Part shown: one piece after another, positions 2,903-26,035 of the stretch
Position numbering within the stretch: the stretch's first letter is position 1
How the letters are laid out: every line of letters starts with the position of its first letter
Source: Mesorhizobium sp.
Lineage (GTDB): Bacteria > Pseudomonadota > Alphaproteobacteria > Rhizobiales > Rhizobiaceae
Reading direction: 5' to 3'
Assembly (NCBI GenBank): GCA_004020545.1
Contig: SAQE01000061.1
Location: forward strand, 1-38,097
DNA: 38,097 nucleotides
Program-made: the position numbers and the translations under genes
Notes under the pieces: model-generated
What the model saw: only the letters and a program-made list of their open reading frames with translations
Database searches by the model: none
Told to the model about the DNA's origin: nothing

Positions 2903-2935
2903 GCTTGCCTTACCAGCAAAGCGTGGGCGCCAAGC

Positions 2936-3093
2936 CACCCCCCTCTGTCCTGCCGGACATCTCCCCCTCAAGGGGGAAGATCGGCAGCTCGCGCGCCGGC
3001 ACTCATTCTGCAACGTTCGCGATTTGCGAAGGCGGCCGTGACATCCAATCTCCCCCCTTGTGGGGGAGATGCCCGGCAGGGCAGAGGGGGGTG
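2936..3093. repeat. RIME-like palindromic intergenic repeat, copy A1
   Basis: About 158 bp with inverted arms. The left arm reads CACCCCCCTCTGTCCTGCCG and continues into CATCTCCCCCTCAAGGGGG. The right arm reads CCCCCCTTGTGGGGGAGATG and continues into CCCGGCAGGGCAGAGGGGGG. The central part (CAACGTTCGCGATTTGCGAAGG) is also shared with the copy at 17213-17369, so the whole element and not just the arms is repeated. It sits between the binding-protein gene and the first permease gene inside one operon and would form a strong hairpin in the transcript. Confidence 0.85.
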
Positions 3094-3120
3094 CCTCGCG
3101 CATCCGCCGGTGTCTAACCC

Positions 3121-4002
3121 ATGCACTTCGGACCCCATCTCCTCCTCGCCGCCCTCGAGGGCCTCGTCACGTCCGCCGTGCTGGCGCTGACGGCGCTCGG
3201 CCTGTCGCTGGTGTTCGGCGTCATGCGCATCGTCAATGTCGCCCATGGCGAATTCTTCATGCTGGGCGCGGTGCTGGCCTGGGCTATCTCGACGGCGATC
3301 TCCGGCCATCCGGCGATCGGCTTCGTTGCCGCGCTGGTGATCGCGCCCTTGATGGTCGGGCTGGTCGCGTTTTTCGCTGAATGGCTGGTGCTGCGCCGGC
3401 TGAACTACAATCCCGAAAGCACCATCGTCGCCACCATCGGCATGCTCTACATCATCCAGCAACTGGCGCTGACATTCTATGGGCCGGAGGCGCGCCCGGT
3501 CGAGCCGCCTTTCAGCTACCGCATCCTCCTGCCATGGTTCGGCTATTCCGGCTACAAGCTGTCGGTGGTCGCGGCCTCCGCCATTCTCCTCGTGCTGACA
3601 TGGCTGGTGCTGACGCGCACCAGGATCGGCCTGATCATGCGCGCCACGCAGTACGATCGCGAGACCGCGCAGGCCTTCGGCATTCCGGTCGAGCGCGTCT
3701 ATGCCGGCGTCTTCGCCATCGGCGCCATGCTGGCGGCGATCGCCGCGGTGCTGATCGTGCCGATCAGCCAGGCGCATTACCTGATGGGACAGGACCCGTT
3801 GCTCCTGTCCTTCATCGTCGTCATCATCGGCGGGCTGGGGTCGCTGCGCGGCACCGTGGTCGCCGCCATCCTGATCGGTCTTTCCGACGGCATCATCTCG
3901 ATGTTCTTCTCGCCGACTTTGGCCAAGATCATCGCCACGCTGGTCGTCGCCATGGTACTGGTGTTCCGGCCGCAGGGCCTGTTTGGGACCACTCAGCGAT
4001 GA
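3121..4002 (+). CDS. livH: Branched-chain amino acid-type ABC transporter permease (LivH family)
   Basis: A 293-residue inner-membrane permease of the LivH family with about eight hydrophobic segments. Family hallmarks include LGLSLVFGVMRIVNVAHGEFFMLGA near residues 26-50 and the late loop VVIIGGLGSLRGTVVAAILIG near residues 235-255, which contacts the ATPase subunits. Its length is usual for the family. The start ATG follows the repeat closely, with no strong ribosome-binding site visible. It overlaps the next permease by an ATGA junction, so the two are translationally coupled. It forms half of the transmembrane pathway of the importer whose binding protein lies upstream. The transported compound is unknown. 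Confidence 0.92.
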   Translation: MHFGPHLLLAALEGLVTSAVLALTALGLSLVFGVMRIVNVAHGEFFMLGAVLAWAISTAISGHPAIGFVAALVIAPLMVGLVAFFAEWLVLRRLNYNPESTIVATIGMLYIIQQLALTFYGPEARPVEPPFSYRILLPWFGYSGYKLSVVAASAILLVLTWLVLTRTRIGLIMRATQYDRETAQAFGIPVERVYAGVFAIGAMLAAIAAVLIVPISQAHYLMGQDPLLLSFIVVIIGGLGSLRGTVVAAILIGLSDGIISMFFSPTLAKIIATLVVAMVLVFRPQGLFGTTQR

Positions 4003-8972: not shown

Positions 8973-9066
8973 CCGGCCGCTGCGCGCCCTCCCTTCTCCC
9001 CTTGTGGAGAGGTCGGATTGTCCCGAATTGCCCTTTGCAATTCTGTTGGCAATCCGGGTGAGGGGG
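8964..9066. repeat. Palindromic intergenic repeat, type B
   Basis: The outer arms CCCCCTCATCCGG (8964-8976) and CCGGGTGAGGGGG (9053-9065) are inverted copies differing at one base. An inner perfect pair GAATTGC/GCAATTC lies at 9025-9031 and 9037-9043. The interior TCTCCCCTTGTGGAGAGG resembles the interior of the copy at 36384-36578. The left arm overlaps the start codon of the transporter gene. Confidence 0.8.
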
Positions 9067-9117
9067 TCCCCCCGAAGGGAGGACGCGAAAGGAACCTTCA
9101 CCTGCCCCACGGTCCGG

Positions 9118-9732
9118 TCAGTCCGACAAATGATCTTCGAGCGTCACGCCGGCTTCGCGCATGCGTGCAATCATCGTGTCGACCGACCCGTTGAGATCGA
9201 TGCCGCGGCAGGCGTCGAGCCGCACAGTCGTCTTGAAGCCTTGCTTCACCGCATCGAGCGCTGAGAAGGCAACGCAGAAATCGGTGGCGAGCCCGACCAG
9301 GGTGACGGTGTGGATACCGCGTTCCTTCAGATAGCCGGCAAGACCAGTCGGCGTCGTGTGGTCGTTCTCGAAGAAAGCCGAATAGCTGTCGATCGTGGTC
9401 CGAAAACCCTTGCGGATCACCAGCTCCGCCTTCGTCCAGGCAAGCCCGGAATGGAAATCCGAGCCGAGGCTGCCCTGGATGCAATGGTCCGGCCAGAGCG
9501 TCTGCGGTCCGTAAGGCATCTCGATCGTCTCGAAGGCCTGCTTCCCCGGATGGCTGGAGGCAAAGCTCGAATGGCCGGCAGGATGCCAGTCCTGCGTCAG
9601 TACGACATGCTCCGTGTGGCGGATCAGATCGTTGACCAGCGGCACGATCTCGTCGCCGCCGGCAACCGCCAGCGCGCCGCCGGGGCAGAAGTCGTTTTGC
9701 AGGTCGATGACGATGAGCGCTTCTGCGGCCAT
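9118..9732 (-). CDS. pncA: Nicotinamidase (pyrazinamidase)
   Basis: A 204-residue cytoplasmic isochorismatase-fold hydrolase that converts nicotinamide to nicotinate and ammonia. The catalytic triad is Asp10 (VIDLQNDFCPGGAL), Lys108 (VIRKGF) and Cys153 (LATDFCVAF). The metal ligands appear as Asp48 and His50 in TQDWHP and His83 in WPDHC. The length matches bacterial PncA. The start at 9732 is preceded by GAGGGAGGCCGC, a good ribosome-binding site; a frame extension to 9792 lacks similarity. The gene is divergent from the molybdenum hydroxylase operon. It could serve NAD salvage, or supply nicotinate to the adjacent operon if that operon degrades nicotinate. The enzyme identity is secure; the pathway link is inference. 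Confidence 0.93.
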   Translation of the reverse strand: MAAEALIVIDLQNDFCPGGALAVAGGDEIVPLVNDLIRHTEHVVLTQDWHPAGHSSFASSHPGKQAFETIEMPYGPQTLWPDHCIQGSLGSDFHSGLAWTKAELVIRKGFRTTIDSYSAFFENDHTTPTGLAGYLKERGIHTVTLVGLATDFCVAFSALDAVKQGFKTTVRLDACRGIDLNGSVDTMIARMREAGVTLEDHLSD

Positions 9733-9826
9733 GCGGCCTCCCTCTGTCTTGGCTTGGGCTCCAGTCGAAGTGCCACTGACGCGACTGGACACGGAACCTT
9801 GACCAGTTGGCCGGCGGCGTCAACCT

Positions 9827-9930
9827 CTACAGCGCCGCGCGTCCCTTTGGACGCGCAAAGGACGCTGTAGCATTCTAGATTTTGCGCGTGATCTCTTTTC
9901 CGAAAATCGATCCGATTTTTGGGTCATGCG
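9827..9930. repeat. Tandem palindromic repeat in the pncA/hydroxylase intergenic region
   Basis: The ends CTACAGCG (9827-9834) and CGCTGTAG (9863-9870) are exact inverted copies enclosing GCGCGTCC-ctt-TGGACGCGC. A second imperfect palindrome follows around CCGAAAATCG/CGATTTTTGG (9900-9922), flanked by GCGCGTGATC and GGTCATGCGC. This pairing resembles a palindromic repeat I associate with Mesorhizobium genomes. It fills the gap between the two divergent genes, and no open frame or RNA gene is seen in 9733-10092 besides the promoter at its right end. Confidence 0.7.
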
Positions 9931-9987
9931 CCAGAGGTTTAACAAAGCCGTGCCGGCCGTTTCCTACAGACTGTCCGGTGCTCCGCT

Positions 9988-10029
9988 TTGACAATTGCGG
10001 CGAAGTTGATATCATTTGCATACGAATGA
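9988..10029 (+). promoter_or_regulatory. Strong sigma-70-like promoter with overlapping operator for the hydroxylase operon
   Basis: TTGACA at 9988-9993 is a perfect -35 box. TATCAT at 10010-10015, 16 nt further, matches five of six -10 positions. TTTGCATACGAATGA at 10015-10029 overlaps the -10 box and probable start point. Its extended form CATTTGCATACGAATG is an imperfect palindrome (12 of 16 positions). It is closely related to the site at 21264-21278. TTGATATCA at 10006-10014 is a further short palindrome over the -10 box. The arrangement is that of a repressor-controlled promoter. Confidence 0.6.
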
Positions 10030-10092
10030 ATTTGCCCGAGCCTGATTGCCCGGCAGGTTCCCTCGGAAAGGCCCTTTCTGGGAAGGCAAGAC

Positions 10093-10950
10093 GTGATCCG
10101 TTACGCGAAACCCACCACGGTCGACGAGGCGCTCGCCTTGCTTGGCGAGGACCGCTGGCGCATCCTCTCCGGCGGCACGGATTTCTATCCGGCGCAGGGC
10201 GCAAAACCCTTCCGCGACAACATCCTCGACGTCAACGGGCTGGTCGAACTGCGGGGTATCGCCGAGGCGGAAGAACGTTGGCGGATCGGCGCCCGCACCA
10301 CCTGGACTGACATCGTCCGTCACCCGTTACCGGCCGCGTTCGATGGGCTGAAGGCGGCCGCGCGCGAGGTCGGCTCGGTCCAGATCCAGAACGTCGCCAC
10401 CGTTGCCGGCAATCTCTGCAACGCTTCGCCTGCCGCGGATGGCGTGCCGGCGCTGCTGGTGCTCGATGCCGATGTCGAATTGCGGTCGGCGATGGCGACC
10501 CGCCACCTGCCGCTCGGCGACTTCATCCTCGGCAATCGCCGCACGGCGCTGCAGCCGGGCGAGATGGTCACCGCCATTCTTGTGCCGAAGCGTTCTGCCG
10601 CCGGCATGTCGGCCTTCGTCAAGCTTGGTGCGCGGCGCTATCTCGTCATCTCCATCGCTATGGCGGCGGCTCGCCTGGTGGTTGACGATGGCGTGGTCGC
10701 CGATGCCGCAATCGCCGTCGGTGCCTGCTCCGCCGTCGCCCGCCGCCTTGCCGGCGTCGAGGCGGCTTTGCGCGGTCAGCCTGTTACAGCCGCGCTCGCC
10801 GACACGGTTCTGTCCGCGCATATCGATGAACTATCGCCGATAGCCGATGTGCGCGGCAGCGCCGAATACCGGAAACACGCCGCGCGCGAGATCGTCGCCC
10901 GCGCGGTGCGTGCCGCAATCGGCCTCGGCGAAAGCAAGGTGGCGGCATGA
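10093..10950 (+). CDS. Xanthine dehydrogenase-family FAD-binding subunit
   Basis: A 285-residue FAD subunit of a molybdenum hydroxylase (CoxM/XdhB/NdhF family). FAD-binding motifs are ILSGGTDFYPAQGAK near residue 28 and TVAGNLCNASPAADGVPALL near residue 102. It passes electrons from the iron-sulfur domain of the downstream subunit to an acceptor. Translation starts at GTG, preceded by GGAAGGCAAGAC, a good ribosome-binding site. It ends in an ATGA overlap with the large subunit, so the two are made together. This order, FAD subunit before a fused iron-sulfur/molybdopterin subunit, differs from classical XdhAB. The substrate is a heteroaromatic or purine; the next gene suggests a pyridine carboxylate. 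Confidence 0.9.
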   Translation: MIRYAKPTTVDEALALLGEDRWRILSGGTDFYPAQGAKPFRDNILDVNGLVELRGIAEAEERWRIGARTTWTDIVRHPLPAAFDGLKAAAREVGSVQIQNVATVAGNLCNASPAADGVPALLVLDADVELRSAMATRHLPLGDFILGNRRTALQPGEMVTAILVPKRSAAGMSAFVKLGARRYLVISIAMAAARLVVDDGVVADAAIAVGACSAVARRLAGVEAALRGQPVTAALADTVLSAHIDELSPIADVRGSAEYRKHAAREIVARAVRAAIGLGESKVAA

Positions 10951-13730
10951 GCACAGTCCGGCCCGGCATCACCCAATCCGGCATCGAACGCGCCGACATT
11001 GCCTTCGAGGTCAATGGCGCCGCCGTCAGCGTCTCGGTGCCGCCGGTGCGGCGGCTGTCGCAGGTTTTGCGCGACGAGTTGCGGCTGACCGGCACCAAGG
11101 TCGGTTGCGATGCCGGCGATTGCGGCGCCTGCACCGTGCTGGTCGATGGCAATCCCGTCTGTGCTTGCCTGGTGCCGGCGGCCTCCGTTTCTGGCGCGAC
11201 CATCACCACGGTCGAGGGCCTCGCCAGTGGCAGGCTGTCCGCCTTGCAGGCGTCGTTCCTCGAGCACGGCGCCGCGCAATGCGGCATCTGCACGCCGGGC
11301 CTGCTGGTGGCGGCCACGGCACTTCTGGAGCGCAATCCGACGCCGAGCGAGGCCGAGACGCAGGATGCGCTGGGCGGCGTGCTCTGCCGCTGCACCGGCT
11401 ATCGCAAGATCATCGCCGCGGTGATGGACGCCTCGCGCCACATGTATGGTGTCGACCATCGCCTGCCGGAGGTTGGCCGCGCCGTCGGCGCCTCGCCGAT
11501 CCGTCTCGACGGTGTGCCCAAGGTCACCGGCGACGAAAAATTCGGCGGCGACAGCTTCCCGGCCGATGCACTGGCCGTGCTTGTGGTGCGCTCGCCGCAC
11601 TATTATGCCCGTTTCAGCTTCGGCGATCTGACAGCCTGGGCAGGCTCTCGCCCCGGCATCGCCGGCGTCTTCACCGCCGCCGACATTCCGGGCCACAATT
11701 GCTTCGGCGTCATCGGTCCCTTTGCCGACCAGCCGGCGCTGGCCGATGGTTTCGCGCGCTTCCGCGGCGAGGCGGTGGCGCTGGTGGCGGGCGAGCGCGA
11801 AGCAATCCTCGATCTCGATCTTACGGATTTTCCGATCGCCTGGACGGAACTGCCGCATGTGCTGCAGCCTTGCGAGGCAAGGGCGGACGGCGCCTCGCTG
11901 ATTCACCAGCATCGGCCTGCGAACCTGCTCACCTCAGGCTTTGTCGAGCGCGGCGACCCCGATGCGGCGCTAGGCAGCGCTGCGGTCACCGTATCCGGTG
12001 CTATCGAGACGTCCTTCGTCGAGCATGCCTATATCGAGCCGGAAGCGGGCTTCGCTTATAGGGACGGCGAGATGCTGGTGATCGTCGCCTGCACGCAGGC
12101 GCCTTATATGGACCGCGACGACACGGCAAAGGTGCTCGGCCTTGCCGTCGACAAGGTGCGCATCGTGCCGACCGCCACCGGCGGCGGCTTCGGCTCAAAA
12201 CTTGATGTCTCTCTGCAGCCTCTCATCGGCCTTGTGGCGATGAAGACGGGCCGAGCGGCAGCGCTAGCCTACACGCGCAACGAATCGATGATGTCGACCA
12301 CCAAGCGCCATCCGGCCGAGATGAAGGCGACGATCGGCGCCGATGCCGAAGGCCGCGTCACCGGCATGGTCTTCGAGGGCGATTTCAACACCGGTGCATA
12401 TGCAAGCTGGGGCCCCACCGTCGCCAACCGCGTGCCGGTGCATGCCTCCGGTCCCTATCTGACGCCGAACTACCGGGCGACGGGTTACGCCATCCACACC
12501 AACGGTCCTATTGCCGGCGCCTTTCGCGGCTTCGGCGTGCCGCAGGCGACCATCATGCAGGAAACGCTCTATGACGAGCTCGCCGGCAAGCTCGGCATGG
12601 ACCGGCTTGATTTCCGGCTGAACAATTGTCTTCGAAACGGTTCCGAAACGGTCACTGGACAACGCCTGGAATCGGGCGTCGGCATCGGCGAATGCCTGGA
12701 GTCGCTTCGGCCGCACTGGTCGCGTGCGCTCGCGGAGGCCGAAGCCTTCAACGCCGTCAATGGAGCAAGCAAGCGCGGCGTTGGCGTCGCCTCCTGCTGG
12801 TATGGCTGCGGCAACACCTCGCTGCCCAATCCCTCGACCATCAAGGTCGGCATCTCGGGCTCCGGTGAGGTCATCCTCCACCAGGGCGCGGTCGATATCG
12901 GCCAGGGATCGAACACCGTCATCACCCAGATTTGCGCCGACGCGCTCGGCCTGCCGCTCGATAAATTCCGGCTGGAGAGCGCCGACACCGCCATCTCGCC
13001 CGACGCCGGCAAGACATCCGCCTCGCGCCAGACTTTTGTGACCGGCAAGGCCGCCGAGAAGGCCGGCCGGTCATTGCGCGAACAAATCCTGCGTTTCGCC
13101 AATGTCTCCGGGAACGCGACGATCGCGCTCGATGGCCCAAGCATCTCCATCCGCGAAGGTGACGCGACGCGGCGCATCGATTTGTCGACACTGAAGGCCG
13201 ATGCCGGCGGCCTGGTGTTCGTCGCAGAAGAGACCTACGACCCGCCGACGCAGCCGCTCGACGCCAAGGGCCAGGGCAAGCCTTATGCCGTCTACGGCTA
13301 TGGCGCGCAGATCGCGGAGCTCGAGGTCGATCTCAAGCTCGGTACCGTGAAACTGATCAAGATCACCGCCGCGCATGATGTCGGCAAGGCGATCAACCCT
13401 GTCCTGGTCGAAGGCCAGATCGAGGGCGGCATCGCGCAGGGCATCGGCATGGCGCTGATGGAGGAATACATCCCTGGCCGCACCGAGAACCTGCACGACT
13501 ATCTCATTCCGACCATCGGCGACGTGCCGCCGATCGAGCACATACTGGTAGAGGTTCCGGACCCGGAAGGACCCTTCGGCGCCAAGGGTCTGGGCGAGCA
13601 TGTGCTGATCCCGACCGCGCCGGCGATCCTCAACGCCATCCGCCATGCCACAGGCGTCCTGGTCACCAAGGTGCCGGCGACGCCGAGCCGCATTCTGGCG
13701 GCGATCCGCGAAAAGGAGGCGCGCCGATGA
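10947..13730 (+). CDS. Fused [2Fe-2S] and molybdopterin subunit of a xanthine/nicotinate dehydrogenase-family enzyme
   Basis: A 927-residue protein. Residues 20-165 form the small iron-sulfur subunit: Cys54, Cys59, Cys62 and Cys74 bind the plant-type cluster, and Cys112, Cys115, Cys147 and Cys149 bind the second cluster. From about residue 175 it is a molybdopterin-binding large subunit with GGGFGSKLD, GAFRGFGVPQA, QGAVDIGQGSNT and the catalytic glutamate Glu884 in GAKGLGEHV. These enzymes hydroxylate a carbon next to a ring nitrogen using water. Eubacterium nicotinate dehydrogenase has these parts as separate subunits; here the iron-sulfur and molybdopterin parts are one chain. The position directly before a 6-hydroxynicotinate reductase-like gene makes nicotinate or a related N-heterocycle the best guess. 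A purine cannot be excluded. Confidence 0.9.
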   Translation: MSTVRPGITQSGIERADIAFEVNGAAVSVSVPPVRRLSQVLRDELRLTGTKVGCDAGDCGACTVLVDGNPVCACLVPAASVSGATITTVEGLASGRLSALQASFLEHGAAQCGICTPGLLVAATALLERNPTPSEAETQDALGGVLCRCTGYRKIIAAVMDASRHMYGVDHRLPEVGRAVGASPIRLDGVPKVTGDEKFGGDSFPADALAVLVVRSPHYYARFSFGDLTAWAGSRPGIAGVFTAADIPGHNCFGVIGPFADQPALADGFARFRGEAVALVAGEREAILDLDLTDFPIAWTELPHVLQPCEARADGASLIHQHRPANLLTSGFVERGDPDAALGSAAVTVSGAIETSFVEHAYIEPEAGFAYRDGEMLVIVACTQAPYMDRDDTAKVLGLAVDKVRIVPTATGGGFGSKLDVSLQPLIGLVAMKTGRAAALAYTRNESMMSTTKRHPAEMKATIGADAEGRVTGMVFEGDFNTGAYASWGPTVANRVPVHASGPYLTPNYRATGYAIHTNGPIAGAFRGFGVPQATIMQETLYDELAGKLGMDRLDFRLNNCLRNGSETVTGQRLESGVGIGECLESLRPHWSRALAEAEAFNAVNGASKRGVGVASCWYGCGNTSLPNPSTIKVGISGSGEVILHQGAVDIGQGSNTVITQICADALGLPLDKFRLESADTAISPDAGKTSASRQTFVTGKAAEKAGRSLREQILRFANVSGNATIALDGPSISIREGDATRRIDLSTLKADAGGLVFVAEETYDPPTQPLDAKGQGKPYAVYGYGAQIAELEVDLKLGTVKLIKITAAHDVGKAINPVLVEGQIEGGIAQGIGMALMEEYIPGRTENLHDYLIPTIGDVPPIEHILVEVPDPEGPFGAKGLGEHVLIPTAPAILNAIRHATGVLVTKVPATPSRILAAIREKEARR

Positions 13731-15268
13731 GCGAGCTTGCCGAACGTTTCGAAACCCACGATCCCGGCGAGAAGCAGGTGGCGGAGAAGATCCGTTGCGA
13801 TGCCTGCCCGGTCATGTGCTACATCGCCGACGGCCGCACCGGCGCCTGCGACCGCTACGGCAATGTCGGCGGCCGTATCGTGCGCATGGACCCGCTGACC
13901 ATCCTCGACCACGCTGCCGAGACTGGCGGCGCGGTGGTGCCTTTCGCGGCCGAGGGCGAAGCCTGGAATGGCGAGTTGGTCAACACCGGCCGCCGCTTCG
14001 TCACCGCGATCGGCGCCGGCACCACCTATCCGGATTATAAGCCGGCGCCCTTCATCGTCAGCCAGGAGGTCGAAGGCGTCGATCTCGTCACCGTCGTCAC
14101 CGAAGGCATCTTCTCCTACTGCGGCGTCAAGGTGAAGATCGACACCGATCGCCATATCGGCGATGAGACAGCGACGGTACGCTCCGAAGGCGAGGCGATT
14201 GGCCATGTGACGACCGGCGAATACGGCTCGCAGATGCTGTCGCTCGGCGGGGTCCATCATCTGACCGGAGGCTCGAAAGCTGAAGGACGCGCCACCTGCG
14301 ATGCGCTGCTCAATCTGTGCAATCGCAAGCCGGTCGAGCTCACCATCGACGGCGGCGCGACGGTCGTCGTCGAGGCCGGCAAACCGCCGGTCATCGACGG
14401 CAAGGTCGAGCATCGCATGCGCGTCGGCTGCGGCTCGGCCACCATCGGCATGTTCGCCACGCAATGGCGCGGCCTGGTCGACGAGGTGGTGGTGGTCGAC
14501 GACCACATCACCGGCGTCGTCTCCGAGCACCAGGCCGGCAAGGTGCTGGGCTGGGAGGATACGGGCATCAAAATCATCGGCCGCCGCTCGACGCCGGGCC
14601 GCTATTTCAAGGTCTCCGAGCCCGGCCTCGGCTGGGGCGGCACCACGATCTCCGACCCGCTGTCGATCCTTGGCGACTGGAACGCCAGGAAGGGCGCACG
14701 GCCGGGCCTGTCGCTGCTCATGGTGTCGACCACCGGCGAGCAGTTCGCCTATTACGAGCTCGACGACCAGCTCAAGCCGGTCGAGAAGCCGTTCCCGGAG
14801 CGGCTGCAGAAATCCGTCGGCCTGATCGAGGAGAATTGCGAGCCCGCGCTCTGCACCGTTCTCTTCGTCGGCGGCGCCGGCGGCTCGCTGCGCGCCGGCG
14901 TCACTGAAAACCCGGTCAACCTCACCCGTTCGGTACAGGGCCTGAAAACCTATGTGACTGTCGGCGGCGCGCCGGTCTACGTCTGGCCGGGCGGCGGCAT
15001 CACGCTGATGGTCGACGTCACCCGCGTGCCGGGAGGCGCCTTCGGCTATGTGCCGACGCCGGCGCTGGTGGCACCGATCGAATTCACCATGCGACGCGAC
15101 GACTATGTCCGGCTCGGCGGCTATGAGAGCGAGATTCGCAGCGTAGAGGACATCCTCGCCAAGGGCGGCGAATACCTCAATCCGCGCCGTGGCGCCGGCG
15201 CGCCGGCCGGCAATCCCTGGCCGCCGCTGGCGCAATTGCGTCGTGGCTGGGCCAACGGGGTCGAGTGA
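13727..15268 (+). CDS. 6-hydroxynicotinate reductase-like iron-sulfur protein
   Basis: A 513-residue protein recognised as like the 6-hydroxynicotinate reductase of reductive nicotinate degradation, which uses reduced ferredoxin to turn 6-hydroxynicotinate into 1,4,5,6-tetrahydro-6-oxonicotinate. An N-terminal cluster site is visible: Cys24, Cys27, Cys31 and Cys41 (CDACPVMCYIADGRTGAC). The rest is rich in Gly and Val, with no classical Rossmann motif. No signal peptide is seen, so it acts in the cytosol. The start is the ATG overlapping the upstream stop (ATGA). It sits directly after a molybdenum hydroxylase, the same order of reactions as in Eubacterium barkeri. Family recognition is from memory of annotated relatives; the exact substrate remains inference. 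Confidence 0.78.
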   Translation: MSELAERFETHDPGEKQVAEKIRCDACPVMCYIADGRTGACDRYGNVGGRIVRMDPLTILDHAAETGGAVVPFAAEGEAWNGELVNTGRRFVTAIGAGTTYPDYKPAPFIVSQEVEGVDLVTVVTEGIFSYCGVKVKIDTDRHIGDETATVRSEGEAIGHVTTGEYGSQMLSLGGVHHLTGGSKAEGRATCDALLNLCNRKPVELTIDGGATVVVEAGKPPVIDGKVEHRMRVGCGSATIGMFATQWRGLVDEVVVVDDHITGVVSEHQAGKVLGWEDTGIKIIGRRSTPGRYFKVSEPGLGWGGTTISDPLSILGDWNARKGARPGLSLLMVSTTGEQFAYYELDDQLKPVEKPFPERLQKSVGLIEENCEPALCTVLFVGGAGGSLRAGVTENPVNLTRSVQGLKTYVTVGGAPVYVWPGGGITLMVDVTRVPGGAFGYVPTPALVAPIEFTMRRDDYVRLGGYESEIRSVEDILAKGGEYLNPRRGAGAPAGNPWPPLAQLRRGWANGVE

Positions 15269-16149
15269 TGAACGGCCCGCAGGCGCACTGGCTTGCCGAT
15301 GGCCGGCGGCTCCATCTCAACCATGGGCCGATCGACCTCATTGTCGAGGCCTTCGGCGACCCGGATGAATGCCGCGCCGCCTACGCGCAGGCTGTTGCGC
15401 GCTTCCAGACGATCCTTACCGAGCTTGTCAAAGAACTTCCCGAATTGCGCCGTCCGGCCTCTTCGGGGGCGCGCGCTTTCGCCGGCCCGACGGCGCGGCG
15501 CATGGAGGCTGCGGTCACACCGCTGGCAGAAGAATTCATCACGCCGATGGCTGCGGTTGCCGGTTCGGTAGCCGACGAAATTCTCGCCGCGCTGGTCGCC
15601 GGACGCCGGCTTGAGCGCGCCTACGTCAACAATGGCGGCGACAGCGCCATTCATCTCGGCAAGGGCCAGTCGATGACGCTGGCCATCGCCGGCACCGGGC
15701 ACGGCTTCGCCGATCGCGTCACCATCCGTGCCGAAGACGGCGTGCGTGGCGTTGCCACCAGCGGCTGGCGCGGCCGTTCGTTTTCGCTGGGTATAGCCGA
15801 CGCCGTCACGATTCTCGCGCGGACCGGCGCCGAGGCCGATGCGGCGGCGACGCTCATCGCCAATGCCGTCGATCTGCCCGGACATCCGGCGATCCATCGC
15901 GCGCCGGCGCGTGATCTCGCACCCGACAGCGATCTCGGCGAGCGGCTGGTGACGCAAGGCGTCGGCGCGCTTTCGGCTGGCGAAGTGGCTAGCGCGCTGG
16001 ACAACGGCCTCGCCGTCGCCGAAGATTTTCGCCGGCGCGGCTTGATTGCCGCATCGGCGCTGTTCCTCGCGGGCCAGTCCCGCGTCAGTGGTTCCGTGGC
16101 GCTGGCCGCGCCCAACAATCATAAGGTGAAGGAAACTGCCCATGCCTGA
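15268..16149 (+). CDS. UPF0280 family protein (ApbE-related fold)
   Basis: A 293-residue protein of the UPF0280 family, distantly related to ApbE-type flavin transferases. It begins MNGPQAHWLADGRRLHLNHG and contains the segment MAAVAGSVADEILAAL near residue 95, followed by YVNNGGDSAIHL near residue 117, the counterpart of the ApbE MAAVAGxxAD and NxGGD region. It has no signal peptide or membrane segment. It starts at a TGATG overlap with the reductase gene; a GTG three bases earlier is also possible. Its role is unknown. In this operon it could mature or assist a flavin enzyme, or be an enzyme of the ring-degradation route. The next gene overlaps it by eight bases, so co-expression is certain. 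Confidence 0.82.
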   Translation: MNGPQAHWLADGRRLHLNHGPIDLIVEAFGDPDECRAAYAQAVARFQTILTELVKELPELRRPASSGARAFAGPTARRMEAAVTPLAEEFITPMAAVAGSVADEILAALVAGRRLERAYVNNGGDSAIHLGKGQSMTLAIAGTGHGFADRVTIRAEDGVRGVATSGWRGRSFSLGIADAVTILARTGAEADAAATLIANAVDLPGHPAIHRAPARDLAPDSDLGERLVTQGVGALSAGEVASALDNGLAVAEDFRRRGLIAASALFLAGQSRVSGSVALAAPNNHKVKETAHA

Positions 16150-16726
16150 CTTTCCGATCCGCAAGGTCGCGGTTCTGACCGAAGAGATTTTTCACGACGG
16201 CGGCCCTGTGGCGAAAGAACCGCGCCTGCGTGCCGCTGCTCTTGCCGTGGTCAAGAACCCCTTCGCTGGCCGCTATGTCGAGGACCTGCAAGGCGCGATG
16301 GAAGACCTGAAGCCGCTTGGGCTGTTGCTTTCCGACAGGCTGATCGCAGCGCTCGGCGGGGACGTGAAGAAGATCGACGGTTACGGCAAGGGCGCCATCG
16401 TCGGCACCGCGGGCGAGCTGGAGCACGGCGCGCTGTGGCATGTACCGGGCGGCTACGCCATGCGCGAGCGGCTCGGCGACGCCAAGGCGATCGTGCCGTC
16501 GGCAAAGAAGGTCGGCGCCTTCGGCTCGCGGCTCGACGTGCCGCTCGGCCACATCAATGCCGCCTATGTGCGCAGCCATTTCGACGCCATGGAGGTCGGC
16601 ATCAGCGACGGGCCGCGTCCCGACGAGATCCTGTTCTGCCTCGCCATGTCGTGCGGCCCGCGCGTTCATGATCGCATGGGCGGTCTCGCGGCCGGGGACA
16701 TCAAGGCATGGGACGGCTTAAGATGA
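16142..16726 (+). CDS. AA_synth (PF06684) family protein
   Basis: A 194-residue cytoplasmic protein of the family named amino acid synthesis, whose biochemical role is poorly defined. Typical features are the N-terminal IRKVAVLTEEIFHDGGP, the KNPFAGRYVEDL segment near residue 38, GKGAIVGTAGELEHGALWH near residue 82, and the late HINAAYVRSHFDAMEVGISD. The start ATG lies inside the end of the preceding gene and follows AAGGTGAAGGAAAC as ribosome-binding site. Its stop overlaps the start of the MarR gene. Family members tend to lie near catabolic hydroxylase and hydantoinase genes in proteobacteria, as here. I cannot assign a reaction from sequence alone. Confidence 0.82.
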   Translation: MPDFPIRKVAVLTEEIFHDGGPVAKEPRLRAAALAVVKNPFAGRYVEDLQGAMEDLKPLGLLLSDRLIAALGGDVKKIDGYGKGAIVGTAGELEHGALWHVPGGYAMRERLGDAKAIVPSAKKVGAFGSRLDVPLGHINAAYVRSHFDAMEVGISDGPRPDEILFCLAMSCGPRVHDRMGGLAAGDIKAWDGLR

Positions 16727-17184
16727 GCGGCGAGGACAATCTGCTGCGGCTGGTAGAGGCCGAAGAGCCGGACGAAAACAATTACCATCTGCAGGACCAG
16801 GTCGGCTTCATCCTGCGCAAGGCGCATCAGCGCCATGTCGCGATCTTCGCCGCCCACATCGCCGATCTGACGCCGCCACAATTCGCGGCTTTGGCCAAGC
16901 TCTACGACATCGGCGAGACCTCGCAGAACCAACTCGGCACGCTGATTGCCATGGATGCCGCGACGGTCAAGGGTGTCATCGACCGGCTGAAGGCGCGTGG
17001 TCTCGTCGAGCTTTCCAAGCACGAGGTCGACAAGAGGCGGCTGCTGGTCAATCTGACGCCGGAAGGCCGCGAGGCGATCGAGCGGCTGATCCCGCTCGCC
17101 CGCGCCATCACCGAGGAAACGCTGGCACCGCTCACGGCCAAGGAAGCTGCGACCTTCTTGCGGCTGCTGGCGAAGCTGGCGTGA
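16723..17184 (+). CDS. MarR family transcriptional regulator
   Basis: A 153-residue winged-helix regulator. The recognition region TSQNQLGTLIAMDAATVKGVIDRLKARGLVEL is followed by the wing HEVDKRRLLVNLTPEGREAI, with the usual Asp-Lys-Arg-Arg, and a C-terminal dimerisation helix. The ATG at 16723 overlaps the upstream stop; an ATG at 16708 is possible but lacks coupling. Being the last gene of the hydroxylase operon, it is the natural candidate for its autoregulator. Its likely targets are the palindromic sites at the 10006-10029 promoter and the 21245-21278 intergenic region. MarR proteins usually respond to small aromatic ligands, which fits a pathway substrate as inducer. The target assignment is inference. 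Confidence 0.9.
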   Translation: MSGEDNLLRLVEAEEPDENNYHLQDQVGFILRKAHQRHVAIFAAHIADLTPPQFAALAKLYDIGETSQNQLGTLIAMDAATVKGVIDRLKARGLVELSKHEVDKRRLLVNLTPEGREAIERLIPLARAITEETLAPLTAKEAATFLRLLAKLA

Positions 17185-17212
17185 AGGGTTGCTTTCGACG
17201 CTGGAGGGACAG

Positions 17213-17369
17213 CACCCCCCTCTGGCCTGCCGGCCATCTCCCCCTCAAGGGGGGAGATTAGCAGCTCGGTCGCTGGTGCTCTTCCTGCAGCGTTGGCGAT
17301 TGGCGAAGGCGAAGGTCATATCCGATCTCCCCCCTTGAGGGGGAGATGGCCGGCAGGCCAGAGGGGGGT
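17213..17369. repeat. RIME-like palindromic intergenic repeat, copy A2
   Basis: Inverted arms CACCCCCCTCTGGCCTGCCG and CGGCAGGCCAGAGGGGGGTT flank a centre (CAGCGTTGGCGATTGGCGAAGG) shared with the copy at 2936-3093. It lies between the convergent MarR and hyuB genes, where its long stem could stop transcription from both sides. Confidence 0.85.
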
Positions 17370-17418
17370 TGGCGGGAACTCGACTTAAGCGTTTGGCCTA
17401 TCCGTCACGCCCGTCCGC

Positions 17419-19107
17419 CTACACGTCCACCCCGAACATCTCCCTGGCCTGCTCCGGCGTATAATAGCCAAGCCGGACATCTTCGACGACGAGCTTCGGA
17501 TCGCGCTCGCGCGGATCGCCATAGCCGCCGCCGCCGGGCGTGCCGACGCGCACGCGGTCGCCGGCCTTGAGCGCTATGTCCTGCTCCTTGGAAAGATGCG
17601 GCGGCACATGCGCTTCGCCGCCGCGGAACACGGTTACGCTGTTCGGCGCCCCGTCCCTGCCGCCGAGCGCGCCCTGCGGTCCGAAGCGGCCGTGATCCAT
17701 GACGAAGGACGCGCGGGCTTCACCTCGCAATATCTCGACCTCATAGGCCAGCCCGAAGCCGCCGCGATGCCTGCCGGCACCGCCGGAGCCTTCGCGCAGC
17801 GCATAGTGCCGGTAGAGCACCGGAAAGGCCTGCTCCATGATCTCGACCGGCGGCGACTTCGAAATGCCGATGGTCGAGCAGCCATTGCTTAAGCCGTCAT
17901 GGGCGGCATTGCCGCCATAGCCGCCGCCCGAGATCTGGTACATGACATAGTCGCGGCCGCGCGCCGGATCGTTGCCGCCGAGCGCGAAATTGCCGCTGGA
18001 GCCGGCGGGCGCCGCCGTCACCTTCTCCGGCAACGCCTGTACCATCGCCGCGAACACCGCCTCGGCGATGCGCTGCGAAACCTCCGCCGCGCAGCCGGAA
18101 ACCGGCCTTGGATATTTCGCGTCGAGGAAGGTGCCCTCCGGCCGTTTGACATTCAGCGGCTCGAAGGCGCCGGCACTGATCGGCACTTCCGGAAAAATAT
18201 GGCGCATGGCGAGATAGACCGACGACAAGGTCGTCGCCAGCACGCTGTTCATCGGCCCGGCGCAGGGTTTTGAGGAGCCGGCAAAGTCGAAGGTCAGCGT
18301 GTCGCTCTTCTTCTCGACGGCCAGATTGATGGTCAGCGGCTCGTTCACCACCCCGTCGGAATCGACGAAGGCCTGCGAGCGGTAGACGCCGTCCGGGATG
18401 ACGGCGATCGAGGCGCGCATCTGATCTGCGGCGCGGCGGCGCAACTCCGCGATAGCCTCGATGACGGTTTCGTCTCCGTAACGATCGAGGATTTCATTGA
18501 GCCTGTCCTGCCCGATCAGCAAGGCCGCCGCTTGCGCGCGAATATCGCCGATGCGCTGGTCGGCGACGCGGATGTTCGAGCAGATGATGGCGTAGATCTC
18601 CGGATCGAGCACGCCCCTCTTGAACAGCTTCACCGGCGGAAGCCTGAGTCCTTCCTGCTCGACGGCGGTGGCCGACGCCGAAAAGCCTCCCGGCACCGAG
18701 CCGCCGATGTCCGGCCAATGGCCGGTGTTGGATAGCCAGCAGAAGATTTTTCCACCGCGATAAACCGGCATGACGAAGCGCACATCCATCAGATGCGTGC
18801 CGCCGAGATAGGGGTCGTTGACGATGTAGATGTCGCCGGGTTCCGGCGCCAGGCAGCTTCCGTCGGCGATCATCTCGATCACCGTTTTGGTCGAATATTG
18901 CATGACGCCGACAAACACCGGCAGGCCCTGGCTGCCCTGCGCGATCAGCGAGCCGTGGACGGCCGAATAGATGCCGTCCGAGCGGTCATTGGCTTCGGCG
19001 ATGACCGGCGAGAAGGCCGCGCGGGAAAACGTCAGATCCATCTCGTCGCAGACCTGTTGCAGGGCCGCCTGCAGCACCGAAAGCGTGATCGTGTCGAGCT
19101 TTGCCAT
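17419..19107 (-). CDS. hyuB: Hydantoinase B/oxoprolinase family subunit
   Basis: A 562-residue subunit of the ATP-dependent hydantoinase/5-oxoprolinase family. It starts MAKLDTITLSVLQAALQQVC one base after the hyuA stop; a longer upstream frame overlaps hyuA and is rejected. Family motifs include FSPVIAEANDRSDGIYSAVHG near residue 36, GDIYIVNDPYLGGTHLMDVRF near residue 90, and the Gly-rich C-terminal part with GGGGYGDPRERDP. HyuB carries the amide-opening activity with HyuA, which supplies ATP-driven activation. Known substrates of the family are hydantoins, 5-oxoproline and N-methylhydantoin. Here the lactam made by the neighbouring reductase would be a chemically sensible target. No ligand can be read from the sequence. 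Confidence 0.92.
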   Translation of the reverse strand: MAKLDTITLSVLQAALQQVCDEMDLTFSRAAFSPVIAEANDRSDGIYSAVHGSLIAQGSQGLPVFVGVMQYSTKTVIEMIADGSCLAPEPGDIYIVNDPYLGGTHLMDVRFVMPVYRGGKIFCWLSNTGHWPDIGGSVPGGFSASATAVEQEGLRLPPVKLFKRGVLDPEIYAIICSNIRVADQRIGDIRAQAAALLIGQDRLNEILDRYGDETVIEAIAELRRRAADQMRASIAVIPDGVYRSQAFVDSDGVVNEPLTINLAVEKKSDTLTFDFAGSSKPCAGPMNSVLATTLSSVYLAMRHIFPEVPISAGAFEPLNVKRPEGTFLDAKYPRPVSGCAAEVSQRIAEAVFAAMVQALPEKVTAAPAGSSGNFALGGNDPARGRDYVMYQISGGGYGGNAAHDGLSNGCSTIGISKSPPVEIMEQAFPVLYRHYALREGSGGAGRHRGGFGLAYEVEILRGEARASFVMDHGRFGPQGALGGRDGAPNSVTVFRGGEAHVPPHLSKEQDIALKAGDRVRVGTPGGGGYGDPRERDPKLVVEDVRLGYYTPEQAREMFGVDV

Positions 19108-19108
19108 A

Positions 19109-21181
19109 TCAGGCCTCGCCGATGTCGATGATGATGTTGCCGTCCGCGTCCGAGCGCGCATGGTCGCCGGGTTCCAGCACCGTCGTGGCGTCCATCTGTT
19201 CCAGGATCGCTGGCCCCTCGATGACGGCATCGAGCGGCAGTTTTTCGCGACTGTAAACCGGGGTGTCGTGCCAGGTACCGTGATACCAGACTGGCCGGAT
19301 TTCACGGCGCGCTTCGTCAAGCGTTGCCGCGCGGCCTGCCGGGTCGATCAGCCGCGACAGGTCGATCTGTGGCCGCACGCCAGTGACCGAGGTGTTGAGG
19401 TTGACGAGGTTGGCGCGGATTTCCGGCAGCTCGACCTTGAAGCGCGCGAAGTAGGCCTTTTCGAATAGCTGCTGCAGCGTCGCCCGTGAAACCGATGAGG
19501 AGGGCAGCGGCACGTTGATGATATGCGTCTGACCGACGAACTGCATGTCGGCGGAATGGGTGACGCGGATCGCATCCGGCTTCACCGCTTCCTTGGCGAT
19601 CAGCGCCTCGCCTTCGTTACGGTGCCGTTCCAATACCTCGCAAAGCTTCGCTTCGTCGAGGCTCGCCACCGGCTGGTTGATCGTGTTGACGAAGTCGTGC
19701 CGCATATCCGCGACGACGCAGCCGAGGGCGTTGGTGATGCCGGGACGCGCCGGCACCAGCACCCTCGGCAGGCCAAGTTCGCGGGCAAGCGCCGTCGCAT
19801 GCAGAGGCCCGGCGCCGCCAAAGGCGAACAGCGCGAAATCGCGCGGGTCGTGTCCGCGCGATACCGACACCATGCGGATCGCGCCAGCCATCTTCATGTT
19901 GCCGAGCCTGAGCACGGCGCCCGCGGCCTCGACGCCGGAGAGGTTGGTGCGCTTGCCGATCCTGTCCTCGAAGATCGAGGTCACGCGCTCGACGGTGACG
20001 GGATTGTCGACCGCCAGCAGCTTCTTCGGCGCCAGCCGGCCGAGCACCAGGTTGGCGTCGGTGATGGTGGGTTCCGTGCCGCCGCGCCCGTAGCAGATCG
20101 GTCCGGGATTGGCGCCGGCGCTTTCCGGGCCGATCTGGATCAGCCCGGCGGCGTCGACGCGCGCGATCGAGCCGCCGCCTGCGCCGACGGTATGCACCGC
20201 CACCATCGGCACATGGATCGGCATCGCATATTCGATCTCGATCTCGTTCGACACGGCGGGCTCTGCATTGCGGATCAGCGCTACGTCGGTCGAGGTGCCG
20301 CCCATGTCGTAGGTGACGAGATTGCCGAAGCCGGCGCGCTTTCCGGTGTAGGCGGCGGCAATCACGCCCGAGGCGGGGCCAGACATCACCGTCTTGGCCG
20401 ATTCCTGCGTGACGAAGCGGGCCGAGATCATGCCGCCATTGCCATTCATGATCAGGAAGTCGCGTCCATAGCCTTTCGCCGCGAGTTCCTTGCGCAGCCG
20501 CTCGACATAGCGCTCGAGGATCGGCTGCACCGAGGCGTTGACCGCCGCCGTCACGCCTCGCTCGAACTCGCGCGCTTCCGAAAGCAGCGCATGACCGGTG
20601 GTGATGTGGCCGTTCGGCCAGATTTCGCGGGCAATCTCCGCCGCGCGGCGCTCATGCGTCGGGTTGGCGTAGGAATGCAGGAAATGGATGACGAGCGACT
20701 CGCAGCCGGCGGCGAGCAATCGCTTCACCGCGTCGCGCATCTCGTTCTCGTCGAGCGCCACGCGCACGGCGCCGGACGCCTCGACGCGCTCTGCAACTTC
20801 GAGCCGGAGATCGCGCGGAATGACCGGCACGAAGGTGCCCGTCATGCCATAGGCTTGCGGCCTCGTGCGCCGTCCGAGCTCGATCACATCGCGAAAGCCG
20901 CGCGTGGTGATCATGCCGGTCCTGGCCAGCCGGCGCTCCAGCACCGCATTGGTGGTGGTCGTCGTGCCATGCACGATGAGGTCGATGCCGTCGACCGGGA
21001 AGCCGGTCGCGGCAAGTGCGGCGACCACGCCAAAAGCCTGGTTTTCCACCGTGGTAGGCCTCTTGGCGATATGCACCTTGCCGCCCGCCTTGCCGTCGAT
21101 CAGCAGCAGGTCGGTGAAGGTTCCGCCGACATCGATGCCTGCGACAACATTTCCCGCCGACGCCGAAAATTTCTCATCCAT
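19109..21181 (-). CDS. hyuA: Hydantoinase A/oxoprolinase family subunit
   Basis: A 690-residue subunit with an actin-like ATPase fold. VVAGIDVGGTFTDLLLIDGK near residue 12 is the first phosphate loop. VTYDMGGTSTDVALI and HTVGAGGGSIARVD in the middle are the second phosphate and adenosine regions, and FAFGGAGPLHATALA lies in the second half. It phosphorylates the cyclic amide so that HyuB can open it. I chose ATG 21181, which places the GIDVGGTFTD motif close to the N-terminus as in the family; ATG 21214 would add eleven residues. Neither has a strong ribosome-binding site. It is the first gene of a two-gene operon divergent from fpr and faces the hydroxylase operon across a repeat. Confidence 0.92.
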   Translation of the reverse strand: MDEKFSASAGNVVAGIDVGGTFTDLLLIDGKAGGKVHIAKRPTTVENQAFGVVAALAATGFPVDGIDLIVHGTTTTTNAVLERRLARTGMITTRGFRDVIELGRRTRPQAYGMTGTFVPVIPRDLRLEVAERVEASGAVRVALDENEMRDAVKRLLAAGCESLVIHFLHSYANPTHERRAAEIAREIWPNGHITTGHALLSEAREFERGVTAAVNASVQPILERYVERLRKELAAKGYGRDFLIMNGNGGMISARFVTQESAKTVMSGPASGVIAAAYTGKRAGFGNLVTYDMGGTSTDVALIRNAEPAVSNEIEIEYAMPIHVPMVAVHTVGAGGGSIARVDAAGLIQIGPESAGANPGPICYGRGGTEPTITDANLVLGRLAPKKLLAVDNPVTVERVTSIFEDRIGKRTNLSGVEAAGAVLRLGNMKMAGAIRMVSVSRGHDPRDFALFAFGGAGPLHATALARELGLPRVLVPARPGITNALGCVVADMRHDFVNTINQPVASLDEAKLCEVLERHRNEGEALIAKEAVKPDAIRVTHSADMQFVGQTHIINVPLPSSSVSRATLQQLFEKAYFARFKVELPEIRANLVNLNTSVTGVRPQIDLSRLIDPAGRAATLDEARREIRPVWYHGTWHDTPVYSREKLPLDAVIEGPAILEQMDATTVLEPGDHARSDADGNIIIDIGEA

Positions 21182-21244
21182 TGTCGAAACCCGAAATGCT
21201 AAGACTACAGACATGTCCCAGTTTGGAAAGGTGTTTTACGCCCT

Positions 21245-21278
21245 GATCTTGACCTCAAGATCGTTTGTATACTAATAA
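21245..21278. promoter_or_regulatory. Double operator between hyuA and fpr
   Basis: GATCTTGACCTCAAGATC at 21245-21262 is a perfect palindrome with 8-bp arms around CC. TTTGTATACTAATAA at 21264-21278 matches the hydroxylase-promoter site at 12 of 15 positions. Both lie 50-85 nt upstream of the possible hyuA starts. TTGACC (21249-21254) and ACTAAT (21271-21276), 16 nt apart, could also be a plus-strand promoter for fpr. Which gene is controlled is not decided by sequence. Confidence 0.5.
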
Positions 21279-21401
21279 CTTTCCAACACAAGGGCCTGCT
21301 GCTGGCAGTGTGTGAGAATCGCGTCGGAACCCGACCGTTCAGACGCGAAGGGATAAAGTTTGGCGCCCGCGCCTCGCGTCCGCGCCGGAAAGTTGGGTTT
21401 G

Positions 21402-22229
21402 ATGAACACGACATCCGCGGTCAACATCGCCGGCGCCAGGCCGCTTCAGTTCCCGATCCCGGCCAATGTTTATGCCGAGACGGTGGTTTCGGTGAAGCAC
21501 TACACCGACCGCCTGTTCTCCTTCCGCATCACCCGTCCGCAGTCGCTGCGCTTCCGCTCCGGCGAGTTCGTCATGATCGGCCTGCCCAATGCCGAGAAGC
21601 CGATCTTCCGCGCCTATTCCGTCGCCAGCCCCGCCTGGGACGACGAGCTCGAATTCTTCTCGATCAAGGTGCCGGACGGTCCGCTGACCTCCGAACTGCA
21701 GAAGATTGAGGTCGGCGACACCGTCATCATGCGCCAGAAGGCGACCGGCACGCTGGTGCTCGACGCGCTGACGCCTGCAAAGCGGCTGTTCATGATCTCG
21801 ACCGGAACCGGCATCGCGCCCTTCGCCAGCCTGCTGCGCGACCCCGACACCTATGAGAAGTTCGACCACGTCTTCCTTACCCACACCTGCCGCGACAAGG
21901 CCGAGCTTCTCTATGGCCAGGAACTGGTGGCGGCACTTGAGAACGATCCGCTGATCGGCGAGCTGACCGGCGGCCGCGTCACGCTCTACAATTCGACGAC
22001 GCGCGAGGAGTCGCCTCGCATGGGCCGCATCACTGCGCTGATCGGCTCGGGCAAGTTCTATTCCGACCTTGGCATCGAAAAGCTCAACCCCGAGACCGAC
22101 CGCATCATGATCTGCGGCTCGATGCATATGCTCAAGGACGTCAAGGAACTCGCCGAGAGCCTCGGCTTCCAGGAAGGCTCGCTGAGCCACCCGGCAAGCT
22201 TCGTCGTCGAGCGCGCCTTCGTCGGCTGA
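21402..22229 (+). CDS. fpr: Ferredoxin-NADP(+) reductase
   Basis: A 275-residue FAD enzyme that moves electrons between NADPH and ferredoxin or flavodoxin. The FAD-binding motif RAYSVASP lies near residue 69, and the NADP-binding GTGIAPFASLL follows near residue 144. The C-terminus ends in VVERAFVG, as in the bacterial subclass found in alphaproteobacteria. I chose the ATG at 21402; a TTG 42 nt upstream in the same frame is less likely. It usually serves general redox and oxidative-stress roles. Its position next to a probable ferredoxin-dependent reductase operon means it could also feed electrons to ring reduction. No ferredoxin gene is present in the window. Confidence 0.92.
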   Translation: MNTTSAVNIAGARPLQFPIPANVYAETVVSVKHYTDRLFSFRITRPQSLRFRSGEFVMIGLPNAEKPIFRAYSVASPAWDDELEFFSIKVPDGPLTSELQKIEVGDTVIMRQKATGTLVLDALTPAKRLFMISTGTGIAPFASLLRDPDTYEKFDHVFLTHTCRDKAELLYGQELVAALENDPLIGELTGGRVTLYNSTTREESPRMGRITALIGSGKFYSDLGIEKLNPETDRIMICGSMHMLKDVKELAESLGFQEGSLSHPASFVVERAFVG

Positions 22230-23430: not shown

Positions 23431-23436
23431 CACCCA

Positions 23437-23582
23437 CCCTCCCCCTTGTGGGGAGGGTCGCCGCGAAGCGGCGGGGTGGGGGTCGAAAAAGCAAATCAAC
23501 TTGTCAAATGCACCAATCCGCTAGCCATTTACCCCCACCCCGATCGGCTCTGCCGATCGACCCTCCCCACAAGGGGGAGGGC
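23437..23582. repeat. Palindromic intergenic repeat between deoC and the ALDH16 gene
   Basis: The left arm CCCTCCCCCTTGTGGGGAGG continues into GTCG and a short CCGC/GCGG stem. The right arm, near 23558-23582, reads CGACCCTCCCCACAAGGGGG. Inner GGGGTGGGGGT and ACCCCCACCCC are also inverted. It lies within an apparent operon and ends just before the ALDH ribosome-binding site AAAGGAGG. Confidence 0.8.
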
Positions 23583-23596
23583 AAAGGAGGCGCCCC

Positions 23597-25972: not shown

Positions 25973-26035
25973 ATTGCTGCGGCCAAACCCAGCGAACCTA
26001 TGCGTTCAAGTACACGCCGGCGATCACGTTCAGGC

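Follow-up and report, generated by a model that had tools for sequence, protein, structure and literature searches.

A probable reductive nicotinate catabolic cluster of Mesorhizobium, with HyuAB as the likely ring opener and UPF0280 as a candidate flavin-attaching protein

Which ring compound does a 38,097-base stretch of Mesorhizobium sp. DNA (contig SAQE01000061.1) serve to degrade, and how could that ring be opened where no enamidase is encoded? The stretch, called the window below, makes up an entire contig in a draft genome of 7.0 Mb, and it carries a homologue of 6-hydroxynicotinate reductase (HNR) together with a molybdenum hydroxylase, the orphan-family proteins UPF0280 and AA_synth (DUF1185), and the pair HyuA and HyuB (HyuAB). 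We put at roughly 0.75 the probability that the whole is explained as a reductive nicotinate catabolic cluster in which HyuAB opens the ring and UPF0280 attaches flavin, the chemical steps being those that we infer. The gene set is not a product of chance, for HNR occurs in 74 of the 297 genomes sampled from the order and UPF0280 lies at most 4.5 kb downstream of it (sometimes after MarR) in 92 of the 93 loci with enough flank. The genes concerned are these:

9118..9792, minus strand: PncA nicotinamidase (NF008623, 214.7 bits against a cut-off of 174), with relatives near HNR in other loci
10093..10950, plus strand: FAD subunit of the molybdenum hydroxylase (PF00941, PF03450)
10947..13730, plus strand: fused [2Fe-2S]/molybdopterin subunit of the hydroxylase (PF20256, PF02738, PF01799, PF00111)
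13727..15268, plus strand: HNR, 513 amino acids (aa), with homologues annotated as 6-hydroxynicotinate reductase
15265..16149, plus strand: UPF0280 (PRK04334; NF003322, 403.5 bits against a cut-off of 290)
16142..16726, plus strand: AA_synth (DUF1185), paralogue A (PF06684, 235 against 27 bits; matches to PDB 3byq/2qtp)
16708..17184, plus strand: MarR-type regulator, probably of the operon (PF01047)
17419..19107, minus strand (likely start 19107): HyuB, metal-dependent hydrolase half of the lactamase (PF02538)
19109..21214, minus strand: HyuA, presumed ATP-binding, substrate-phosphorylating half of the lactamase (PF01968, PF05378, PF19278)
21360..22229, plus strand: FAD/NAD(P) flavoprotein reductase, ferredoxin/flavin reductase-like (PF00970, PF00175)

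A preliminary description of this DNA had listed the same genes, and its coordinates agree with the open reading frames (ORFs) and profile matches. The layout that it gave is likewise borne out: consecutive genes of a tight operon (10093-17184) overlap by 4-19 bases, HyuB and HyuA face it convergently on the opposite strand, PncA lies upstream and the reductase downstream.

In the pathway that we propose, PncA would free nicotinate from nicotinamide, the hydroxylase would convert nicotinate to 6-hydroxynicotinate, and HNR, fed by the flavin reductase (presumably via ferredoxin), would reduce the latter to 1,4,5,6-tetrahydro-6-oxonicotinate (THON), a six-membered lactam. HyuA would phosphorylate this lactam with ATP and HyuB would hydrolyse it with its metal, giving 2-formylglutarate and ammonium via an enamine and thus replacing the enamidase. 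UPF0280 would attach the flavin of HNR covalently, and AA_synth would process the ring-opened product, perhaps by a decarboxylation towards glutarate semialdehyde.

That HyuAB stands in for enamidase as the ring opener, as the preliminary description had supposed, now appears very likely. The Pfam scan of 30 window ORFs detected no amidohydrolase, in line with that description. Since the window is a whole contig, an enamidase "just outside" it was sought genome-wide: the general amidohydrolase family is matched 19 times in this genome, but of 8 first-look candidates for an enamidase, 6 of which were scored, none reached E<=1e-90, and a hidden enamidase elsewhere in the genome was rejected at this threshold. 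In other genomes, the amidohydrolase near HNR matches the enamidase structure of Eubacterium barkeri (2vun, 2.9e-101). Among 100 HNR loci (L039-L138), some of them short and some from genomes represented twice, HyuA was nearby in 27, enamidase in nine, and both in none.

The same alternation extends to whole genomes, many of which are drafts. Throughout the order sample, enamidase was detected at E<=1e-90 in 49 genomes (at least 59% identical in 48; the 44% match of G056 was dropped) and HyuA of at least 58% identity in 31. The 74 HNR genomes divide into 39 with enamidase only, 27 with close HyuA only, three with both and five with neither, an exclusion with a Fisher probability of 5e-12, ignoring kinship. 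Close HyuA is present in 30 HNR genomes and in one of the 223 others (G185), and enamidase in six genomes without HNR. Two of the three double carriers (G209, G248) have no enamidase beyond an enamidase-like gene of 59-61% that sits in a module apart, the gene of the third (G098) being 82% identical; two of the five genomes with neither enzyme (G032, G246) are fragmented assemblies, the others being G064, G159 and G245. Counted by genus, 21 of 32 genera have enamidase without HyuA, nine have HyuA without any enamidase-only genome, one is mixed and one has neither, and two members of the window's own genus also hold a separate enamidase-like module.

The preliminary description had named a consistent lack of hyuAB near the reductase homologues as an argument against its own reading. 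Many genomes do show such a lack; almost all that were searched whole, however, turned out to contain either enamidase or a close HyuA at a distance. Neither enzyme was nearby in 56 of the loci L059-L138, and 32 of these genomes, which overlap with the order sample (G301 is apparently the same genome as G248), were searched completely: 23 have HyuA (63-92%) elsewhere, four of them with an additional enamidase-like gene of about 60%; eight have enamidase (72-84%), with any HyuA match at E<=1e-170 staying at or below 45%; and one, the 2.2 Mb assembly of L098, has neither. Four more HNR loci beyond the order comprised two with enamidase and two with HyuA.

Phylogeny points in the same direction. 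The 32 HyuA sequences of at least 59% identity from HNR genomes constitute one clade (support 100/100), apart from 15 HyuA of lower identity (44-50%). In a quickly built HNR tree (77 rows, SH-aLRT as the sole support measure), the label for the ring opener has to change six times, and supported branches force at least five of these changes; L058 (both enzymes), L098 (neither), L041, L225 and loci to which no ring opener had been assigned were left out of it, and rows with HyuA plus an enamidase-like gene of about 60% were labelled Hyu. In L081, which stands beside Aminobacter on this tree, the operon and its downstream genes resemble the window, with HyuAB and AA_synth gone from their place, and the genome has no close HyuA, carrying enamidase and a B-type AA_synth elsewhere; in L113, another swap took place inside a Rhodobacter-like group. 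HyuAB as a chance neighbour was rejected on these grounds, namely the genome-wide exclusion, the confinement of close HyuA to HNR genomes and the swaps on the HNR tree. For one and the same proposed step, there would thus have been repeated switches between a hydrolase and a lactamase that spends ATP.

The catalytic motifs of HyuAB are also intact. HyuA retains the ATP motifs DVGGTFTD, DMGGT and GANPGP, and HyuB residues D41-H105-D108-H130 align with the CapB tetrad Asp41-His99-Asp102-His124, this Asp-His-Asp-His metal tetrad being kept in all 29 readable relatives from 34 loci. Motifs and tetrad follow PMC8453981, the text of which gives Asp102 as a ligand and the abstract of which names the mutant D101A. 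In common with the CapAB caprolactamase and the OplAB oxoprolinases (PMC8453981, PMC11033972), HyuAB has the ATP motifs, the metal tetrad and two subunits; unlike CapAB, it stays far below the NCBIfam caprolactamase equivalog cut-offs (503 and 318 bits against 1000) and forms a clade of its own tied to HNR. Oxoprolinases of this family are described in PMC11033972 as hydrolysing the six-membered delta-valerolactam.

It might alternatively be argued that HyuAB acts on some other lactam or hydantoin and that the ring is opened by another enzyme, such as AA_synth. HyuAB is indeed a broad family, and some genomes carry it away from the operon; the fold of AA_synth resembles chorismate mutase, with no chemistry assigned to it in PMC2954203; and five of the 74 HNR genomes, two of them fragmented, are without both ring openers. 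Nevertheless, we consider this improbable in view of the replacement pattern seen in the order, in the 32 completely searched genomes and on the HNR tree, and in view of a close HyuA found almost only in HNR genomes. AA_synth itself co-occurs with both enzymes and therefore cannot explain their alternation, for which reason it is disfavoured as ring opener; among the five genomes with neither enzyme it was present in G246 and not found in G032, G064, G159 and G245.

With HyuAB retained as the probable ring opener, what would be the role of UPF0280? We favour, with some reserve, the reading that it is the flavinyltransferase of HNR, a dedicated one being the simplest reading. A strong UPF0280 match is present in 72 of the 297 genomes, that is, in 71 of the 74 HNR genomes and in one of the 223 others (G185 again, in which HyuA, UPF0280 and AA_synth are present and no HNR was found). 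The three HNR genomes short of a strong match involve fragments or contig ends: in G120, HNR ends 133 bases before the contig end; in G183, an HNR fragment lies at the contig start; and in G224, HNR is partial and a UPF0280 fragment lies at the contig start. With E-values of about 1e-5, the matches of G072 and G224 were too weak to be counted. Of the 209 genomes in the phylum sample, 17 carry HNR and exactly these carry UPF0280; 13 of them belong to the order sample as well. Moreover, the two genes lie apart in G068, G135, G181 and G208, and both are kept, so that linkage alone cannot account for their pairing.

A Foldseek comparison of the predicted UPF0280 model (pLDDT 92.9) ranked DVU1097 (2o34) first; the rest of the 41 best matches are all ApbE, Ftp or FmnB structures, the next and unrelated one having an E-value of 0.41. 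The ApbE-type structures matched with E-values from 2.7e-5 to 4.1e-3 at probabilities of 0.97-1.00 and with TM-scores, normalised to the query, of 0.34-0.51. Over all these matches the TM-scores are 0.34-0.57, which indicates that UPF0280 is a distant relative. Profile alignment (hhalign) with eight ApbE of related genomes (E 2e-4) brought the TSG and ADAxxT elements together. The ApbE triad is given as Asp285-Ser241-His257 in PMC12052999. By alignment and spacing, Ser166 and Asp192 of UPF0280 correspond to the Ser and Asp of this triad in 62 of 62 sequences, and R171 and S172 are invariant in the region of the ApbE His. UPF0280 therefore shares its predicted fold and the triad Ser and Asp with ApbE, Ftp and FmnB (PMC12052999), but it has no catalytic His and belongs to a different family (UPF0280, DVU1097).

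The partner protein, HNR, is itself poor in recognisable relatives. Its sequence matches nothing in Pfam, NCBIfam or PDB, and its predicted model is mediocre (pLDDT 71) with no fold match in PDB (best E 0.089); its best named relatives are from Mesorhizobium (97%). Homologues were found on 26 of 72,556 plasmid records, and 12 of the 20 listed are annotated as 6-hydroxynicotinate reductase. An apparent two-gene HNR (L225, 9323-10752) was rejected as a domain split, being apparently a frame shift in the assembly. The E. barkeri enzyme reportedly carries a covalently bound flavin, a finding ascribed to Alhapel in 2006, and it is this flavin, together with the ApbE-like fold and the co-occurrence with HNR, that makes UPF0280 probably the HNR flavinyltransferase.

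An alternative that we regard as rather unlikely would make UPF0280 some other maturation or cofactor factor of HNR, acting in flavin delivery, FAD hydrolysis or Fe-S assembly. The missing catalytic His would suit such a role, and an ApbE-type protein of Treponema is an FAD pyrophosphatase according to PMC4767422. On the other side, UPF0280 retains the D-x3-T element as well as two residues of the triad, Ser and Asp. HNR, moreover, is the constant partner, and in E. barkeri it is said to hold its flavin covalently. Attachment of the HNR flavin hence stays our preferred function; it would give the orphan family UPF0280 a testable role and, if true, would be of interest to protein engineers as a second flavin-attaching enzyme. 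No literature on UPF0280 was found by name among open-licence papers, and the matches listed for DUF375 were apparently longer names containing it.

Several points weigh against the explanation as a whole. As regards ring opening, G098 holds both enzymes; G064, G159 and G245 have HNR and UPF0280 without close HyuA, enamidase or AA_synth; HyuA is sometimes far from the operon, about 98 kb in G136; and the label of the HyuA clade was set partly by identity, 10 of the 15 lower-identity HyuA being also from HNR genomes. The independent point is therefore the near confinement of close HyuA to HNR genomes (30 of 31). As regards UPF0280, the ApbE catalytic His is missing, with no conserved His in the region, there is no Pfam match, and the hhalign probability for a relation to ApbE is only 45%. 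The exact ApbE target motif D-x-x-[ST]-G-A-[ST] was not seen in HNR on a by-eye look, in which HNR would differ from the ApbE targets; the nearest conserved stretch, likewise by eye and not exact, is D259-H-I-T-G-V-x-S. The HNR cysteines C24, C27, C31, C41, C132, C191, C235 and C371 are present in 52 of 52 sequences (ten cysteines in at least 48), and these eight invariant residues would fall short of the twelve ligands needed for the cluster content that we assume. Finally, the methanogens Methanocaldococcus jannaschii and Methanosarcina acetivorans hold sub-cut-off UPF0280 matches; if UPF0280 attaches flavin, it would need a target there too.

As for the substrate, the preliminary description had allowed that the ring might differ from nicotinate. 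It is probably nicotinate itself, because a nicotinamidase adjoins the operon and the hydroxylase is related to the nicotinate dehydrogenase of E. barkeri, and we hold it highly probable that the cluster degrades this vitamin B3 compound by the known reductive route. Chains A and B of that dehydrogenase (3hrd) match the molybdenum part with 262 + 226.5 bits, a sum of 488, and the best single PDB chain is an aldehyde oxidoreductase (1dgj) with 423 bits, to which a two-chain sum is not strictly comparable. Nicotinamidase also lies near HNR in several lineages. PMC3511419 reports growth of Bradyrhizobiaceae SG-6C on nicotinate and 6-hydroxynicotinate, its cluster having an HNR 42% identical to that of E. 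barkeri, and the entry of 6-chloronicotinate from insecticides via 6-hydroxynicotinate. Better prediction of the breakdown of vitamin B3 and insecticide-derived 6-chloronicotinate in Alphaproteobacteria may hence become possible. The opposite case, in which a different pyridine or lactam (e.g., a substituted pyridone) is degraded and PncA is a bystander, could draw on the differing substrates of molybdenum hydroxylases and reductases and on the occurrence of the enamidase module with AA_synth in the absence of HNR; set against the nicotinamidases near HNR in several lineages, the relation of the hydroxylase to nicotinate dehydrogenase and the growth of the relative SG-6C on nicotinate, it seems very improbable. 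As a separate observation, the Bradyrhizobium-type loci L131, L134, L136 and L043 have another hydroxylase beside the same HNR, in which the FeS subunit is separate from a Moco subunit of 1184-1248 aa; the end of the latter is cytochrome c-like in L134 (5646-9688; the family scan covered L134 only). This hydroxylase may resemble NicAB of Pseudomonas.

The nicotinate route of this cluster would share with the fermentation of E. barkeri a relative of nicotinate dehydrogenase, HNR and the intermediate THON. In contrast to E. barkeri, a 2vun-type enamidase was not found in the Mesorhizobium genome, and the later steps probably lead to glutarate rather than to 2-methyleneglutarate, glutarate being the end of these steps according to what Kitts is said to have reported in 1992. 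Nicotinate clusters of Azorhizobium caulinodans, Bradyrhizobium japonicum, Rhodopseudomonas palustris HaA2 and SG-6C hold the first three steps according to PMC3511419; these steps, which we take to include ring opening, are described there without the word "enamidase", and the present cluster has HyuAB instead.

AA_synth may act on the ring-opened product, although we offer this only tentatively. The family owes its name to its fold and to neighbouring transporters of the branched-chain type (PMC2954203), and such transporters were found repeatedly in HNR clusters. Two paralogues exist, A (at least 53% identical to that of the window) and B (43-51%, in tandem with A, as is often the case, or in the cluster), assigned by reading the match list. 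Of the 48 enamidase genomes 46 have B, against two of the 249 others; A is present in 26 of 27 HyuA-only genomes and in 28 of 39 enamidase-only genomes, though four of these 28 (G035, G171, G194, G270) have just a 53-54% copy outside the cluster. In five genomes lacking HNR, both paralogues are neighbours of enamidase, and of the 88 HNR loci long enough to show it, 11 have no AA_synth alongside. This pattern assigns AA_synth to the ring-opening end. The nicotinate route of Azorhizobium needs a decarboxylation after ring opening. Thus the two orphan-family proteins need not provide new chemistry, as had been supposed in the preliminary description: UPF0280 probably serves cofactor attachment, and AA_synth follows the ring-opening side. 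The name that DUF1185 carries, taken from amino-acid synthesis, is probably misleading, and its role would be redirected accordingly. That everything holds jointly, i.e., that UPF0280 is a His-less flavinyltransferase family for HNR distant from ApbE, that enamidase and HyuAB were swapped at least five times, and that DUF1185 is an enzyme of heterocycle catabolism after ring opening with B tied to enamidase, falls somewhat short of an even chance.

Among the remaining genes, the flavoprotein reductase, whose top NCBIfam match is a ferredoxin-NADP reductase (135.6 bits, under the cut-off of 390), adjoins HyuA in L139-L142 and lies near HNR in other loci; we propose that it supplies electrons to HNR through a ferredoxin. 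A further candidate lies near the beginning of the window:

1598..4002, plus strand: branched-chain-type ABC importer with binding protein (1598-2902) and permease (3121-4002) (PF13458, PF02653)

Its relatives were found repeatedly near HNR elsewhere, and it could conceivably import nicotinate. Adjoining PncA on the same strand (6429-9110) are an ornithine cyclodeaminase-like protein and a CitMHS_2 transporter, the latter retained in many Mesorhizobium loci.

Some observations were made on other ring-opening modules. HNR-UPF0280 clusters L174, L175 and L176, from three genomes of one genus in which close HyuA, enamidase and AA_synth are all lacking, might have a third way of ring opening; HyuA of 49-50% occurs elsewhere in the genomes G064, G159 and G245, and 10 ORFs scanned from regions L175 and L177 of G159 included no ring-opening candidate. 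Loci L159 (7670-10236 and flanks), L160, L161 and L170, three of them Mesorhizobium-type and one of another family, contain a second enamidase-like gene (59-60%) with A-like and B AA_synth and MarR; in L159 this module adjoins nucleoside hydrolase and ABC transporter genes, and our guess is that it serves a ribosylated pyridone. L164 and L165, from HNR-less genomes, combine enamidase with tandem AA_synth A and B, i.e., a ring-opening module independent of the reductase.

Among the matches listed from the open-licence literature, none linked nicotinate degradation to a hydantoinase; a fungal nicotine transcriptome in that literature pairs 6-hydroxynicotin with oxoprolinase. Downstream in the window (22381-26919) lie a DeoC-type aldolase, a double aldehyde dehydrogenase (ALDH) and an SDR, which adjoin HyuAB and the flavin reductase also in L139 and L141; in L081, DeoC and ALDH come after the HNR operon, without HyuAB.

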